Below the pieces are notes generated by a model. That model was not told where the DNA came from. It saw nothing but the letters and a program-made list of their open reading frames with translations, and searched no databases. A program made the position numbers and the translations under genes. This document shows positions 3,834 through 22,557 of a stretch of DNA of 32,684 nt, one piece after another. Origin of the DNA: a virus; the IMG/VR virus record IMGVR_UViG_3300032093_000518, positions 1 to 32,684 of that record, one strand, 5' to 3'. Position 1 is the stretch's first letter. The number at the start of each line of letters is the position of its first letter.

Positions 3834-4847
3834 TTAGTTTTGCCTTTCCGCAATATCACGAATGACTTCTGCATCCATTTCCATCATTACATAGAGTGCT
3901 TCATCTACGGTCTCTACGTGCCCGTTGTCGATGAGATACTCAAGGACTAAATCAAAAGCATCATACTCATAGGACTGGTTTAGCATCTTCTCTCTAGCGG
4001 TCTGTCTGGGCGCTACAGGGGTTGGTTTAGGGGTTGCAGCAAGGGCAGCGGTCTGCTTAACTTCAGGTGCTTTAAATGCTGATGCACCTGGAGTTGGTGA
4101 TGAAAATGCTTTAGCACCAGCAGATTGACCTGCTGATTGAATTTTAGCAGTGGTGCCCGCAGCCTTTGCTGCCTGAAGTGCTTTTTCTGGAGAAGCACCA
4201 GATGCTCTTGCTGCTTGTGCTGCCTTTAATTCGGCAGAGGTTGGAGTTCTTCTTTCGAATGAAGTTTTGCCCAACATTCCGGTTGCAGGTTTTGCAGGTG
4301 CTGCAGGTCTAGTGGGGGCAACTTTAGCTACATTAGTAGGAGCAGCACTACCACCACGAGCAGTATAACGTGCCTTCTCAGCACCTGTAAAGGCACCTGC
4401 AGTGAATTTACCAGTAGACTTATCTAACTTACCCTCTACCCCACCTTTCTTTGCCAAGACTACTGAAGAAGGAGCTGGTTTAGCAGTTGCAGGAGTAGCG
4501 GATCTAGCAGGAGTAGCAGGTGTTGCTGCTCTAGCGGGGGTAGCAGGAGTAGCGGGTTTACCACCAGCGGGTTGCATTCCCTTTGTGAAAAATTTAGTTG
4601 CTGCTGCTTGTGTAGTCTTAGTATCAGATACTATTTTATCAAAAGCACCCTCCATTCCCTTTCTTGGTTGTTGTGCTGGTTTTTGTCCGGTAAAAACTGG
4701 AGATGGGGTACTTTTAATAGCAGAAAATACATCCATTTTTTCATCAATTTGCTCAACTTCTTCTGAAAGATTTTCTTGTTGAGGAGCACACATCGATGTA
4801 TATACTTCCATCAATTTACGTGCTTCACTGGTTGAAAGTTCCGACAT
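3834..4847 (-). CDS. Ala/Pro/Thr-rich virion-structural-like protein
   Basis: A 337-aa protein. The acidic N-terminus (SEARKLMEVY...EEVEQIDE) is followed by about 220 residues of low-complexity Ala/Pro/Thr/Lys sequence, including tandem ATPATPAR-type units around 100-125. The conserved C-terminal segment (YEYDAFDLVLEYLIDNGHVETVDEALYVMMEMD, quoted here in outline: YDAFDLVLEYLIDNGH, then DEALYVMMEMD) is a form I recall from several T4-like cyanophage and pelagiphage structural proteins. It is a single-gene unit between a late element (4875-4882) and a terminator (3721-3744). No Shine-Dalgarno is present; the leader is A-rich. A head-internal or scaffold-like role is inference from composition and late control. 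Confidence 0.75.
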   Translation of the reverse strand: MSELSTSEARKLMEVYTSMCAPQQENLSEEVEQIDEKMDVFSAIKSTPSPVFTGQKPAQQPRKGMEGAFDKIVSDTKTTQAAATKFFTKGMQPAGGKPATPATPARAATPATPARSATPATAKPAPSSVVLAKKGGVEGKLDKSTGKFTAGAFTGAEKARYTARGGSAAPTNVAKVAPTRPAAPAKPATGMLGKTSFERRTPTSAELKAAQAARASGASPEKALQAAKAAGTTAKIQSAGQSAGAKAFSSPTPGASAFKAPEVKQTAALAATPKPTPVAPRQTAREKMLNQSYEYDAFDLVLEYLIDNGHVETVDEALYVMMEMDAEVIRDIAERQN

Positions 4848-14445: not shown

Positions 14446-15369
14446 CTAGACATATCTTTGTATATTTCTTCCACCAACCGGTTGAATAATAACTCTTGCA
14501 CCTTTTATGCCATGATCACTCCTATCTCCCTTATAAACAGCCAGAAAAACTGGTTCATAACTTCCGGAAATTCTATCACCATTATTGAGTTTATGCCCAG
14601 AACAAGTTAACTCATAATACCTACCCCTATTCTGCACACTCAACACTCCTTGCATGGTAACATCCACATTATTTTCACCCTTTACGCCCCCATATCCACT
14701 TCCATAAACTGCCATTTTCTTCAAATTTTCGTCTTGTATCCTTCTGCCTACTGTAGTTGCCGAAGGTATACCATTAGGAAACATATCTTGCAATGTAGAT
14801 ATAAATGCTTGTGTTTCTGGATGTGCAAATATCAATGGTTCAGATCTCTGAGATGTGCCCGCCCACTGTTGAAACGCTCTTGCACCGTCACCAGCCTTAT
14901 GAGATACATGCCCAACATATCCACCAACTCCCCTAAAATGGAAATCACACTTAGGAGTGCCAGGAGTACTTTCACACAGACCAACTTGATATGTTGTATT
15001 TCCAACCTTTAACGGTATAATTTCGGAACCAATTTTATCAAATATTGCAGTTAATTGTTGGTTTACTCTTATAATTTGAGCATCTTCCTGAGCGGTAGTT
15101 GCCTGTGTTCTTCCTGAAAATTCAGAATCTTTATAAATCTGAGTGATGTTTATATATTGTCCAGTAGTTGTCGGAAGCATTATAGATCTTCCACTTTTAA
15201 ATCTATCAAATTGGTTAACAGAACTCAAATTAGTTAATATAGATTTATCTAATTTAACCTTTTGACCATTTGCTTCAGATAAAGTAAAATCCTGCCCTGT
15301 TCTTATTCTAGTCAAAAAAATGTTGAAATTATTTCTCTTTGCAAGTTCACTAGGATTTAACGTCGCCAT
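14446..15369 (-). CDS. Late cyanophage protein, possible PD-(D/E)XK-like nuclease
   Basis: A 307-aa protein (MATLNPSELAKRNNFNIFL...). The N-terminal region resembles a DNA-processing accessory domain; the centre contains CDFHFRGVGGYVGHVSHKAG (about 138-157) followed by QQWAGTS. An Asp, then a beta-strand spacer, then xxK is the core of the restriction-endonuclease-like fold, though the usual acidic residue before Lys is Ser/His here. Relatives with the ISHKxG...QQWGG pattern are, as I recall, widespread uncharacterised cyanophage proteins. The start shares a 20-nt upstream context with the 56-aa gene at 22557. Family membership is plausible; nuclease function is speculative. Confidence 0.72.
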   Translation of the reverse strand: MATLNPSELAKRNNFNIFLTRIRTGQDFTLSEANGQKVKLDKSILTNLSSVNQFDRFKSGRSIMLPTTTGQYINITQIYKDSEFSGRTQATTAQEDAQIIRVNQQLTAIFDKIGSEIIPLKVGNTTYQVGLCESTPGTPKCDFHFRGVGGYVGHVSHKAGDGARAFQQWAGTSQRSEPLIFAHPETQAFISTLQDMFPNGIPSATTVGRRIQDENLKKMAVYGSGYGGVKGENNVDVTMQGVLSVQNRGRYYELTCSGHKLNNGDRISGSYEPVFLAVYKGDRSDHGIKGARVIIQPVGGRNIQRYV

Positions 15370-15378
15370 TTTTATTTT

Positions 15379-15385
15379 TATTTAG
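15379..15385 (-). promoter_or_regulatory. CTAAATA element close to the start codon
   Basis: Part of TCTAAATAAAAATAAAAATG, identical to the sequence before the 56-aa gene at 22557. Only 9 nt separate it from the ATG, and it begins 3 nt after tRNA-Leu. If it is a late promoter the mRNA would be almost leaderless; otherwise it is an A-rich translation-start context. Confidence 0.45.
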
Positions 15386-15388
15386 AAA

Positions 15389-15468
15389 TGCCCAAGAGAG
15401 GACTCGAACCTCCACGCCGAAGCACTTGATCCTAAGTCAAGCGTGTATACCAATTTCACCACTTGGGC
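15389..15468 (-). tRNA. tRNA-Leu (anticodon UAG)
   Basis: An 80-nt class II tRNA. The acceptor stem is GCCCAAG/CTTGGGC with discriminator A. The anticodon stem CTTGA/TCAAG closes the loop CTTAGGA (anticodon TAG). The variable arm has a TTCG loop, and the T arm is GGAGG-TTCGAGT-CCTCT. CCA is not encoded. It lies 2 nt after tRNA-Ala and is transcribed with it. Confidence 0.95.
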
Positions 15469-15470
15469 AA

Positions 15471-15543
15471 TGGAGAATAGGAGATTCGAACTCCTGACCT
15501 CCTGAATGCAAATCAGGCGCACTACCAACTGTGCTAATTCCCC
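15471..15543 (-). tRNA. tRNA-Ala (anticodon UGC)
   Basis: A 73-nt tRNA. The acceptor stem GGGGAAT/ATTCTCC contains the G3-U70 wobble pair, the main identity element for alanyl-tRNA synthetase, so charging by the host enzyme is expected. The anticodon stem CCTGA/TCAGG holds the loop TTTGCAT (anticodon TGC). The T loop is TTCGAAT. CCA is not encoded. Confidence 0.96.
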
Positions 15544-15552
15544 AGTAAAACC

Positions 15553-19227: not shown

Positions 19228-21734
19228 TAGGCAAAAAATAGTTCAAGGTTTACAGTTTTTTCGACATTCCATCCAATTGAATCGAGAATGGACTTAAGCG
19301 GGTCTACAAAACTCTTTTCAAATTGTAAGTCATAGTCTATGTATTTGTCAAGTCCAAGTTCCTTTGGAAAATCTTGAATGAATGAAATTACATTCTCCTG
19401 AATAATGTTTGGTTTTTTCAGAAAAATAAACTTGACTTTTTCACCATTTGAAATAAGAGAATACTTATTTGTCAGTTTCTTTTCTTTTATATAATGATTA
19501 AAAAGAAGTGCTCCACGAATATGAATGGGAGTTTTCTGAGCATAAATGGTTGCTGATGAATGATACTTACGAACATCAGACGCAGTTCGTGGAAATGCAA
19601 TCTGTTCTGGAGGTAAAGACTTAAACTCTTCACGACACTTATCAATGAAGTTAATTACATCTTCTTCGGTCCCACTCATCATCAGTTTGAGACCATCTTT
19701 AATCATCTTGCGACAAGGTGCAGGAGTTGATGACTTAACTGCCTCAATACCCATCATCTTGAGTTTAGGTTCTTCATAACGAACACCTTCACTATCCCAA
19801 ACATTTAGGATATATCTCTTTTTAGCGGTCCAGATTCCACGTTCGGCAATGTTTTCACGCTTCATCTGCATCTTCTGGTCATAAGCATTTACATACTCAG
19901 CCAGTTCTTGGTAGCAACCTTCAATATACTTTTCAAGTTCCACCTGACAGACCTTATCAAGGAACGAAACAATGCCTTCAGTAGTTTTCTCTCTTCCCTT
20001 GAATATACGTTCAACCAGAGGACCCATATTAAGGTAAATAGAATCAGTATCTGAAGCAATAACATAATCAACTCCATCAGTTTTCAAAAGTTTGTTGATA
20101 TAGGCATTCATCTTGTCTTCAATCCAACGGATAGAAACCTGACCAGACAAAGTGATTGCCTCAGCATTTGCTAGTTTGTAATAACGGAAATACTGATTGC
20201 CGATAGCACCATAAGCAGAGTTAAGTTGAATCTTCCTCGCCATTTGGATGTTGTTGCACCTAGCAATCTCTTTTTCCAACTCTTTTGTCTTTTTCTTTTC
20301 ATACTCTTGTTTGGCAGCAAGCATTTTCTTTTTATAGATGGTGCGGTCTCGATAGATTTTTTCCATCAATTCTGGTAGAAATCCCCGCACATCCTTACGG
20401 AACATTGCCCCGTTAGCACATACTGCCTTGTCCTTATACATTTCAAATGTGATTTCCTGATTCAGTATTTTATCTACAGTTACTGATGGATGCCTCTCAT
20501 CCAGAAGTGTTTCTGGTGAGATATTATACTGCATAATAAGGTGAGGATATAGAGAGTTGAGGTCAAAAGATACAACCCAGTCATATTTTCCAGGAATAGG
20601 TTCCTTAACGTATGCACCAGCATACTTAGAGTCTTTATCAGAACGCTCTTTGGGAGGAATCACAATGTTCCTCTTTTTCAGATAGTTGTAGATAATAGTA
20701 TCCCACATTCTAACCTGTGAAAACACATCAGCATAGTTTGCTTTTGCGTCATAGGCCATGGTGATTGCAAGTTCAATCAGTTTCATCTTATCTTCCAGAC
20801 GGTCAACAAGTTCCACGTCAATGATGTTGTATTCTACAAACTTTTGCCAACCTTTGGTATAGAAGTCCTTAAAGGTATCAAACTCAGAGTGGTCCAGTTT
20901 TTTCTGACCAAGTTCTACATTTGCAATATGATCCAGACGATAAGACTCTTGTGCTTTATAAGTAAACTTTTTATAAAGATTCAGATAATCGAGTTGAGTA
21001 ATACCACCAACATCGTAAGAAATGTGCTTACGACCAGCAATATAAATCTCAGTCTCAGTTACAAGTCCCCAAGGAGAAATGCGTTTCATCAATTTCTCAC
21101 CTAGAACACGATCTAGACGACGAACAAGATATGGAATATCATAAAGCTCGCTGTTCCACCCAGTCACAACTTCTGGAGTATTTGTTTCAACCATCCACCA
21201 GTTGATAAAGTCGTTGAGAAGATCATATTCGCTGGAGAAAGAACGGTAATCAACATTCTTCTGCTGATTCTTGAAAGGACCTTGCCCCCAAGTGCGAATT
21301 TTCTTGGATGAGTAATCTTGAATAGTAATGAGTAGAACTTCCTCAGCGGCAGACTCTACATCAGGGAATCCGTTTTCAGAGGCAACCTCAATATCAAGAG
21401 TGGTAACTTTGATATTAGTAATATCAAACTTGAGTTCCTCTTCAGGATACATTTCAGAGATATACTGATAGATGTATCCAGTATTTCCATAAATTTTAAA
21501 GTTTTCTACTCCATCATATCTTTTTACAAACTCACGACAGTCGCGAACAGAACCAGGTTGAACCGATTCAACATATTCTCCATTCAGAGTCTGATATTTA
21601 GTTTTCTTTTGAGAAGGGACAAAAAGAGTCGGGTTAAACTTCTCCCGAGTCATGAAATGTTTTCCATTTTCATAACCACGGACCAAGAAGTGATCCCCGA
21701 CCATCTGCACGTTTGTATAAAATCGAAGCGACAT
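19227..21734 (-). CDS. 43: Replicative DNA polymerase, T4 gp43 (family B)
   Basis: An 835-aa polymerase with proofreading exonuclease. Exo I is DIE at 114-116 (TTLDIEVAS); Exo II is in VVTGWNSELYDIPY. Polymerase motif A is DLNSLYPHL (391-399), motif B KIQLNSAYGAIGN (501-513) and motif C DTD (562-564). The final residues LELFFA fit the xLxLFF clamp-binding tail of T4-type polymerases, so docking on gp45 is expected. The ATG at 21734 overlaps the upstream stop as TGATG. It is slightly shorter than T4 (898 aa) and uninterrupted by an intron or intein. Confidence 0.97.
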   Translation of the reverse strand: MSLRFYTNVQMVGDHFLVRGYENGKHFMTREKFNPTLFVPSQKKTKYQTLNGEYVESVQPGSVRDCREFVKRYDGVENFKIYGNTGYIYQYISEMYPEEELKFDITNIKVTTLDIEVASENGFPDVESAAEEVLLITIQDYSSKKIRTWGQGPFKNQQKNVDYRSFSSEYDLLNDFINWWMVETNTPEVVTGWNSELYDIPYLVRRLDRVLGEKLMKRISPWGLVTETEIYIAGRKHISYDVGGITQLDYLNLYKKFTYKAQESYRLDHIANVELGQKKLDHSEFDTFKDFYTKGWQKFVEYNIIDVELVDRLEDKMKLIELAITMAYDAKANYADVFSQVRMWDTIIYNYLKKRNIVIPPKERSDKDSKYAGAYVKEPIPGKYDWVVSFDLNSLYPHLIMQYNISPETLLDERHPSVTVDKILNQEITFEMYKDKAVCANGAMFRKDVRGFLPELMEKIYRDRTIYKKKMLAAKQEYEKKKTKELEKEIARCNNIQMARKIQLNSAYGAIGNQYFRYYKLANAEAITLSGQVSIRWIEDKMNAYINKLLKTDGVDYVIASDTDSIYLNMGPLVERIFKGREKTTEGIVSFLDKVCQVELEKYIEGCYQELAEYVNAYDQKMQMKRENIAERGIWTAKKRYILNVWDSEGVRYEEPKLKMMGIEAVKSSTPAPCRKMIKDGLKLMMSGTEEDVINFIDKCREEFKSLPPEQIAFPRTASDVRKYHSSATIYAQKTPIHIRGALLFNHYIKEKKLTNKYSLISNGEKVKFIFLKKPNIIQENVISFIQDFPKELGLDKYIDYDLQFEKSFVDPLKSILDSIGWNVEKTVNLELFFA
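19322..19351 (-). promoter_or_regulatory. Sigma70-type promoter upstream of uvsX group
   Basis: -35 TTGACA (19351-19346, six of six), 18 bp, -10 TACAAT (19327-19322). It is inside the 3' end of gp43 and about 90 nt before the 54-aa gene. Confidence 0.5.
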
Positions 21735-21988
21735 CAGGCGGTTAATTCAAGATACTTTTCAACAATTTCTTCTTTTGGATCCACAATGGTAAGGATACTG
21801 TCCGAATGAATCATCATTTCTCTCTGATCAGTTACATCAGGCCAAGGAGTAAGATTTCCTTCGGCGTCAATGCGGAAAGGATTAATGAGTTTACAATCAG
21901 GCTCTCCTAATTCAGAACCAACTTCGATAATCTCAGTAACAATTACATTATCAACTTTCAACAAAAGACACTTAACTGTTTTGTCCAT
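21734..21988 (-). CDS. Small Sm-like beta protein, copy 2
   Basis: An 84-aa protein (MDKTVKCLLLKVDNVIVTEI...). It is similar in layout to the 102-aa product just upstream: a strand-rich N-terminus, then CKLINPFRI against CGYIFNKPHKV, and SDSILTIVDPKEEIVEKYLE against LDWVVTIVEPLNSVKDLYEE. The pattern resembles small Sm-fold barrels; I recall comparable cyanophage proteins directly upstream of gp43. It overlaps copy 1 by 17 bp and gp43 by one base. RNA binding is possible but untested by sequence. Confidence 0.75.
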   Translation of the reverse strand: MDKTVKCLLLKVDNVIVTEIIEVGSELGEPDCKLINPFRIDAEGNLTPWPDVTDQREMMIHSDSILTIVDPKEEIVEKYLELTA

Positions 21989-22280
21989 TTACTCTTTCCT
22001 CATAAAGATCTTTAACTGAATTGAGTGGCTCAACGATAGTAACAACCCAATCTAACGGAACTAAAATTTGGTCATCTTGTGTTAAAAGAATCCATGATGA
22101 TAAAGATACTTCGATTTTAGCATCATAGTCTACCTCTTCAGTTAAAAGGATAGACCTTTCTGTAAGAACCTTGTGAGGTTTATTGAAAATATATCCACAA
22201 GGTTTTTCATCAGAAACAATTTCTTTAATATCAGAAATAATTGTTTCGCCGGACTTCAATAGCGCAAGTTTGATTGACAT
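21972..22280 (-). CDS. Small Sm-like beta protein, copy 1
   Basis: A 102-aa protein (MSIKLALLKSGETIISDIKE...). Predicted beta strands alternate with short loops: LLKSGETIISDI, CGYIFNKPHKVL, VSLSSWILLTQDD, QILVPLDWVVTIVEP. It is the first gene after the consensus promoter at 22303-22331 and has a purine-rich AAGGAAGAAG leader. It is related to copy 2 (84 aa), which probably arose by tandem duplication. Function unknown; its place heading the gp43 unit suggests a link to replication or RNA handling. Confidence 0.77.
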   Translation of the reverse strand: MSIKLALLKSGETIISDIKEIVSDEKPCGYIFNKPHKVLTERSILLTEEVDYDAKIEVSLSSWILLTQDDQILVPLDWVVTIVEPLNSVKDLYEERVNGQNS

Positions 22281-22302
22281 TTTTATCTTCTTCCTTCAAG
22301 GT

Positions 22303-22331
22303 ATTATACTCAAAAAAATGGGAGGTGTCAA
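22303..22331 (-). promoter_or_regulatory. Perfect-consensus sigma70 promoter for the gp43 unit
   Basis: -35 TTGACA (22331-22326), exactly 17 bp, -10 TATAAT (22308-22303): 12 of 12. The -35 is inside the 3' arm of a terminator hairpin and the terminator U-tract forms the spacer. The predicted start is about 16 nt upstream of the 102-aa gene. Confidence 0.88.
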
Positions 22332-22354
22332 CTGGATTTTGCCAGTTACCTCCC
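22312..22354 (-). terminator. Intrinsic terminator overlapping the next promoter
   Basis: Stem GGGAGGT/ACCTCCC plus AACTGG/CCAGTT with a 3-nt bulge and a 6-nt loop, followed by TTTTTTT on the minus strand. It ends the hsp20 and 56-aa unit while carrying the -35 of the gp43 unit promoter. Confidence 0.85.
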
Positions 22355-22386
22355 TATGGCATAGCGCCGACGATATTCAATTGTAT

Positions 22387-22557
22387 TTAGTCGCCATTAC
22401 CATTTCCACCATCACCAGCACCACTTCCAGGATTTATTGGGACTGCCCTACCAGAAGAAACTTTTTGAGTTTTTCCTTTCATATAAACTTTATGTGGTTT
22501 TGCTGCTGGATATGAAATAGTTTTTATTTCATTAAGAAATTGGTGGAAGGATTTCAT
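22387..22557 (-). CDS. Small late-type protein with capsid-targeting-like N-terminus (56 aa)
   Basis: It begins MKSFHQFLNEI, matching the M-K-[ST]-F-x-[QE]-F-[ILV]-x-E pattern seen in the nucleotidyltransferase and the 170-aa protein. A basic middle (AAKPHKVYMKGKTQKVSSGR) and a Gly/Asn/Asp tail follow. The upstream context is identical over 20 nt to that of the 307-aa gene. It ends just before the terminator at 22312-22354. It is a candidate head-packaged peptide; the remainder has no known domain. Confidence 0.76.
   Translation of the reverse strand: MKSFHQFLNEIKTISYPAAKPHKVYMKGKTQKVSSGRAVPINPGSGAGDGGNGNGD

Follow-up and report, generated by a model that had tools for sequence, protein, structure and literature searches.

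The window, meaning the whole 32,684-nucleotide stretch of viral DNA under analysis (IMG/VR record IMGVR_UViG_3300032093_000518), carries on its minus strand a 56-aa ORF (22387 to 22557) with no match in Pfam or PHROG and, further downstream, a 102-aa DUF6561 gene (21972 to 22280). Two overlapping adjacent genes at 21734 to 22280 both match DUF6561, forming a tandem pair upstream of gp43. Between the ORF and the DUF6561 gene, an earlier note had placed a terminator and a perfect-consensus promoter that share bases, and this overlap is indeed found, correctly positioned. Reading along the minus strand, the 3' arm of a bulged terminator hairpin (22354-22320) contains TTGACA, and after another 17 bp comes TATAAT, so that all 12 hexamer positions match the sigma70 consensus. 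The 5' arm GGGAGGT-AACTGG (22354-22342) is joined by the loop CAAAAT (22341-22336) to a 3' arm (22335-22320) made of CCAGTT, the bulge GAC, and ACCTCCC. Within 105 nt of surrounding sequence, this structure of 13 pairs and a 3-nt bulge has the lowest folding energy, and the distal stem CTGG-CAAAAT-CCAG is conserved. After the hairpin come one A and then seven T (22318-22312), giving the G+C-rich hairpin directly before a U tract that is typical of intrinsic (Rho-independent) terminators. The same T7 tract is part of the spacer between the -35 hexamer (22331-22326, spanning the bulge) and the -10 hexamer (22308-22303), whose 17 bp lie within the 16-18 bp of sigma70 promoters. It is the only 12/12 match within the 19.7 kb scanned, against a chance expectation of 0.013 per window (4 of 300 Markov sequences). 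The start codon of the DUF6561 gene, the first downstream of this promoter, is 23 nt past TATAAT. From these motifs, an RNA start near 22296 and an RNA end near 22312 are predicted.

While the overlap itself stands, the 52 bp given for it (22303 to 22354) are too short, since the conserved unit reaches 22391. In alignments the best conserved bases lie upstream of the hairpin: [A/C]TAAATA, five bases, and then GAATATCGTCGNCGC. At the window locus the first of these reads CTAAATA, and the box GAATATCGTCGGCGC (22364 to 22378, minus strand), the best conserved part of all, starts exactly at the predicted +1 and runs to +15. The [A/C]TAAATA motif is present in about 98% of the elements at a fixed spacing from the box, and it also appears in matches from a scan whose pattern left TAAATA out. 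In a second spacing type, with two bases fewer, the box starts at ATATCG, again at +1. T4-type late promoters have a TATAAATA-like box about 10 bp before +1, and here this box is ACTAAATA, a NCTAAATA variant, at 22384 to 22391 (predicted -13 to -6). The cyanophage late-promoter consensus is NATAAATA (PMC2984593), and in Aeh1 the late promoter box covers -13 to -6 with a/gC at -13/-12, that is, with a C variant at -12 (PMC2988020). Judging by the motif, the promoter would be used late, by the gp55-polymerase. The TAA stop of the 56-aa ORF lies inside this TATA box, and the TAA of TAAATA is likewise the stop of the upstream ORF in 90 of the 153 elements for which such an ORF can be assigned.

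Downstream of the box there is a linker, TATGCCATA (22355 to 22363), which differs among relatives in both length and sequence, and then the terminator; almost all elements with the GAATATCG box have one. The hairpin covaries, with both-side changes in six of eight consensus pairs. Promoter, 5' box, linker and terminator together thus have the plan of a small RNA of about 60-70 nt. In the window this RNA would run for about 67 nt, from the late-promoter +1 to the end of the T tract (22378-22312), and it matches our covariance model R1 with 82.6 bits (E 1.5e-18), the training alignment of the model including a row from the window. As in trans-acting small RNAs, it is short, has a promoter and a terminator of its own and contains no ORF, the box region being without a conserved start codon. 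The terminator-promoter overlap is thus the downstream tail of a longer putative small-RNA gene (22391-22303). In three elements (L191, L220 and L240), the CTGG-CAAAAT-CCAG hairpin is not part of the terminator, which forms a hairpin of its own further on. The conservation of the small hairpin is therefore not due to termination, and it has a role beyond it. The small hairpin is likewise separate from a second, true terminator hairpin in L028 and in S-8S56 (L461).

When the element is searched together with its surrounding 1.1 kb, many cyanophage records match over the element only (about 92 bp at 84% identity) and not over the flanks. Used as a query, the element hits 298 phage records at one place each, nearly all of them named Synechococcus, Prochlorococcus or cyanophage; a second query hits 312, with 199 covered over at least 80% of its length. 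By comparison, about 470 records contain a T4-like cyanophage DNA polymerase, so the element is present in roughly two thirds of T4-like cyanophage records, from both the ocean and freshwater. A first scan with CATATCGTCGNCGCA gave mostly chance matches, which were filtered by the hairpin. The element core has no match among 84,980 bacterial genomes, and no Rfam family (PhotoRC-II, manA, wcaG and others) scores above its gathering score at the element. Among 25 complete cyanophage genomes examined, nine are without a detectable element (S-BM3, S-SZBM1, P-TIM40, S-CRM01, S-T4 and the Prochlorococcus phages P-SSM5, P-SSM4, P-HM1 and MED4-213), and phage T4 has no counterpart directed against E. 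coli 5S rRNA. Each of 15 complete genomes that carry the element has a single exact copy. Its neighbours are DUF6561-gp43 and hsp20 in the window, S-SRM01 and S-CAM1, hli and psbA in S-RIM8, Syn19, Syn33 and P-SSM7, and hli2 with a convergent structural gene in S-PM2. In metagenomic contigs they also include ndhD-like, gnd-like, plastocyanin-like and psbD genes (names read from translations). The proposed tie to the gp43 unit does not survive this variety of neighbours. A constant sequence amid changing neighbours argues instead for a trans-acting product. In two records, L361 (ACG-2014f) and L366 (S-N03), the gp43 DNA polymerase gene is annotated in two pieces with small ORFs between them.

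The sigma70 promoter is less constant. TTGAC occupies the same place in the hairpin arm in 146 of 209 related elements, and 133 of these 146 have a -10 with at least five of six matches near the T tract; the 17-bp spacer is found in 136 of them. A strong sigma70 promoter is thereby present in about 64% of the elements. A similar -10 falls in the same interval in 35 of the other 63, against 18% reached by shuffled controls. The joint conservation of hairpin and hexamers expected by the earlier note therefore holds for most elements of the family, including the closest relative S-SRM01, which keeps the hairpin, TTGACA and TATAAT, but one component is lost in some relatives, which by the note's own standard counts in part against it. 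In S-PM2 the hairpin is kept between convergent genes without any sigma70 promoter, and Syn9 (element at DQ149023, about 164123-164185) and others also have none at the element; the upstream late promoter and anti-5S box, on which the earlier note is silent, are kept throughout elements of this type, S-PM2 and Syn9 included. The idea that terminator and promoter are fused into one functional unit thus finds no support. In six elements (L026, L071, L232, L332, L357 and L205), metagenomic ones among them, a second late-promoter-like box, TATAAATA, replaces TATAAT right after the T tract, as if the terminator could accommodate promoters of different kinds. The sigma70 promoter is best read as a frequent, optional addition to the terminator that probably serves the gene after it, in the window the DUF6561-gp43-uvsX unit.

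The target of the box is suggested by its complement, which was sought in eight cyanobacterial genomes. Two of the three matches in Synechococcus WH7803 form an identical inverted pair, and these are the two 5S rRNA genes (RF00001). The box is antisense to nucleotides 65-79 of the host 5S (WH7803 numbering), GCGGCGACGAUAUUU, with a U.G pair at the last position, and the match holds for the 5S of WH7803 and of other Cyanobiaceae. These nucleotides make up the end of helix II, loop A, and the 5' strand of helix V/loop E. Like a small-RNA seed, the box is mostly unpaired in the predicted fold, and its target is encoded elsewhere, in the host. Most elements were found through box patterns, so the fact that 275 of 276 have no mismatch to 5S is partly circular. 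Two independent tests are provided by a blind scan and by the counts at the free position N of the box (G in the window). In the blind scan, elements were gathered through the terminator hairpin only, ignoring the box. Even so, in 95 of 96 distinct upstream segments an uninterrupted run of 13 nt or more is complementary to a cyanobacterial 5S, the exception being L625, where the match is broken. The mean complementarity is 16.8, compared to 9.6 for shuffled segments, and there is no excess against a 23S fragment. Duplex energies are -31.7 versus -22.2 kcal/mol after shuffling, with 60 of 75 below all 30 of their shuffles.

In 151 Cyanobiaceae genomes the host N is only G or C. In 276 distinct phage elements it is G in 113, C in 83, T in 80 and never A. 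This is just what G.U pairing to a host G or C predicts; by duplex energy, the unseen N=A would pair weakest with the main host forms. T-type boxes fit a host G only through a U.G wobble, which argues for RNA pairing rather than DNA identity. The 5S variants GAAG, GAAA and GATAGTT are present in Cyanobiaceae. They predict the complementary boxes ATATCTT, ATATTTT and CTATCG, and a search then recovered such boxes in elements that are typical in all other respects (11 and about 36 matches, compared with 2 of 23 for a control pattern that fits no host). For each box variant, the matching host form is the strongest partner or lies within 0.1 kcal/mol of the strongest. In some leaders the match continues into helix IV and reaches -43 kcal/mol. 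An element of ACG-2014f, recovered by the covariance model but not used in building it, has its own, longer 5S antisense. In this diverged element (L744, KJ019085 117772-117826), TAAATA is missing, a GGGAG/CTCCC stem precedes CCCAAATATCGTCGC, which is the long 5S match (-45.6 kcal/mol), and TATAAT comes after the terminator. The fit to an isolation host can be imperfect: WH7803 is an isolation host of phages such as S-PM2, S-RIM8 and S-RSM4, and their N=G against the G of WH7803 leaves one G.G mismatch, with a duplex of -21.7 instead of -26.1 kcal/mol. Taken together, these data suggest that the box changes in step with the host 5S, and that these viruses may attack or commandeer ribosome building with RNA.

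Other readings of the box were tried, and the first two of them rejected. As a peptide (TAT CGT CGN CGC, or Y-R-R-R with a silent N), it has no start codon, the two spacing types do not share one frame, and A never occurs at N. Host mRNAs were also considered, but in the eight cyanobacterial genomes the complement of the 15-mer gives scattered single matches except for the two 5S copies of WH7803. Finally, 16S rRNA came into question because ten leaders contain GGCTACCTTGTTA, which coincides with the 1492R primer site over 13 nt. The GGCTACCTTGTTA stretch also pairs with 5S helix IV, however (-43 versus -26 kcal/mol for the whole leader), and the other extended leaders fit 5S only. In L647, L675, L676, L698, L732, L734 and L735, whose leaders begin with GGCTACCTTGTTAAATATCG, the predicted RNA opens with 13 nt equal to the 1492R site, antisense to the 3' region of 16S. 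For such GGCTACCTTGTTAAATATCG leaders, a double target of 16S and 5S is possible.

A working model can be proposed from these features. Early in infection, the host RNA polymerase would use the TTGACA/TATAAT promoter within the terminator to transcribe the DUF6561-gp43-uvsX unit. Later, the phage gp55-type RNA polymerase would start at 22378 and stop at the bulged hairpin, yielding the RNA of about 67 nt, and the terminator would keep the small-RNA unit apart from the DUF6561-gp43-uvsX unit. The unpaired 5' end would then pair with nucleotides 65-79 of the host 5S, and in other phages with helix IV as well, competing with the 5S fold and with the 5S ribosomal proteins. 5S binds uL5, uL18 and bL25 (PMC7283268), and while the 50S subunit is being put together, the targeted part has to fold and take up ribosomal proteins. 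Pairing would depend on nascent 5S or on a helper, because free 5S is already partly folded at the target and the ribosome buries it. Newly made 5S would in this way be kept out of 50S subunits or marked for decay. That a late-expressed phage RNA pairs with the host 5S and would keep it from the 50S, with a sigma70 promoter grafted onto its end, is in our judgement quite probable. What can be read directly from the DNA is the conservation, the single copy, the antisense match, the co-variation with host 5S, the terminator and the promoter motifs.

The simplest alternative is an ordinary gene-boundary cassette, in which the terminator ends the upstream unit, the sigma70 promoter starts the downstream one, and sharing bases saves space or couples the two, without any small RNA. 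It would account for the 12/12 promoter, the good terminator and their joint conservation in most relatives, with the hexamers kept at 17 bp. Yet neither terminator nor promoter needs the best conserved bases, found upstream of the hairpin, and S-PM2 and Syn9 keep these bases without a sigma70 promoter. Both the 5S complementarity and its co-variation are also left unexplained, making this account improbable. A site acting at the DNA level is much harder still to uphold. Attachment sites typically share their sequence with a stable-RNA gene of the host, and the box tracks host variants as a site of attachment or recombination with the sequence of the host 5S gene might. However, T-type boxes match a host G only as U.G RNA pairs and are identical to no observed host 5S, extended boxes pair with wobbles and a bulge, and the box starts at a promoter +1. 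The identity is limited to about 15 bp, no integrase is annotated in the neighbourhoods read, and a box-containing phage element is found in none of the 84,980 bacterial genomes. In addition, T4-like cyanophages are lytic.

The closest competitor shares the whole of the pairing evidence. In it, the RNA would bind 5S without blocking assembly, and would favour phage mRNAs on ribosomes, stabilise 5S, or use 5S as a carrier or sponge. We consider this unlikely, though far from negligible. The CTGGCAAAATCCAG hairpin kept despite a separate terminator in L191, L220 and L240 suggests that a partner binds there, as such a role might involve. In the mature 50S, the 5S nucleotides covered by the box are paired or protein-bound, which favours nascent 5S as the target. 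The known anti-5S factors pull in opposite directions: phiKZ014 binds 5S associated with ribosomes and its expression does not block host translation (PMC10914614), while plastid AS5 lowers 5S stability and polysome presence (PMC3017836). From motifs and pairing we infer that the phage makes this RNA, that the RNA binds 5S inside the cell, and that ribosome assembly is affected in the direction of our model. In its most specific form, with a class of phage RNA that binds host rRNA, traps nascent 5S late and stops 50S assembly, and with a seed in an evolutionary chase with the 5S of each host species through which the host group might be read, the model is tentative, its chances somewhat short of even.

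Several known systems resemble the element in part. AS5 of tobacco plastids is a natural RNA antisense to 5S rRNA, acting on ribosomes of cyanobacterial descent, and its overexpression reduces both the stability of 5S and its share on polysomes (PMC3017836). This provides a precedent for the effect proposed here. Unlike the cyanophage RNA, AS5 is cellular rather than viral, longer, and encoded in cis opposite its own target, and it has neither a swapped or co-varying seed nor a late promoter. The phiKZ014 protein (PMC10914614) is a phage factor aimed at the host 5S rRNA, and by analogy it indicates that a phage can profit from handling 5S. It is however an early protein that clamps the 5S terminus, while the cyanophage element is an RNA predicted to be late and to pair with helix II/V. 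Non-coding RNA of T4-like cyanophages is exemplified by CfrI of S-PM2 (PMC2984593), but this is a cis-antisense RNA of about 225 nt between psbA and F-CphI, with a different size, place and target. The PhotoRC-II, manA and wcaG RNAs (Rfam) are conserved in the same phages, sometimes nearby. They are cis-regulatory leaders, and match elsewhere in the same loci rather than at the element. Finally, the AgvB-type anti-sRNAs of E. coli prophages (PMC12197685; PMC4104026) are small phage RNAs that pair with a host non-coding RNA, but their target is a regulatory sRNA and not a ribosomal RNA.

Pairing of phage small RNAs with regulatory RNAs of the host is thus already known, while a search of the open-access literature returned no phage RNA directed against ribosomal RNA, the only anti-5S cases there being plastid AS5 and phiKZ014. 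The putative RNA has no Rfam model, though it occurs in about two thirds of the records of T4-like cyanophages, viruses that are among the most abundant in the sea. What 5S rRNA contributes to translation has long been an open question (PMC10914614), for which a natural, host-tuned antisense to one side of the molecule would be a ready tool. Because 5S differs between picocyanobacterial groups, the box may also be a sequence clue to the hosts of uncultured cyanophages.

Elsewhere in the window, a tRNA-Leu (tag) and a tRNA-Ala (tgc) adjoin at 15388-15544, with a CTAAATA box just downstream (15379-15385). Near this pair, at 15314-15385, there is a weak covariance-model match of 14.6 bits. At 4282-4575, within a 337-aa ORF (3834-4847, minus strand), a 36-nt repeat occurs in nine imperfect copies spaced by 9 nt, and this repeat tract is possibly collagen-like.
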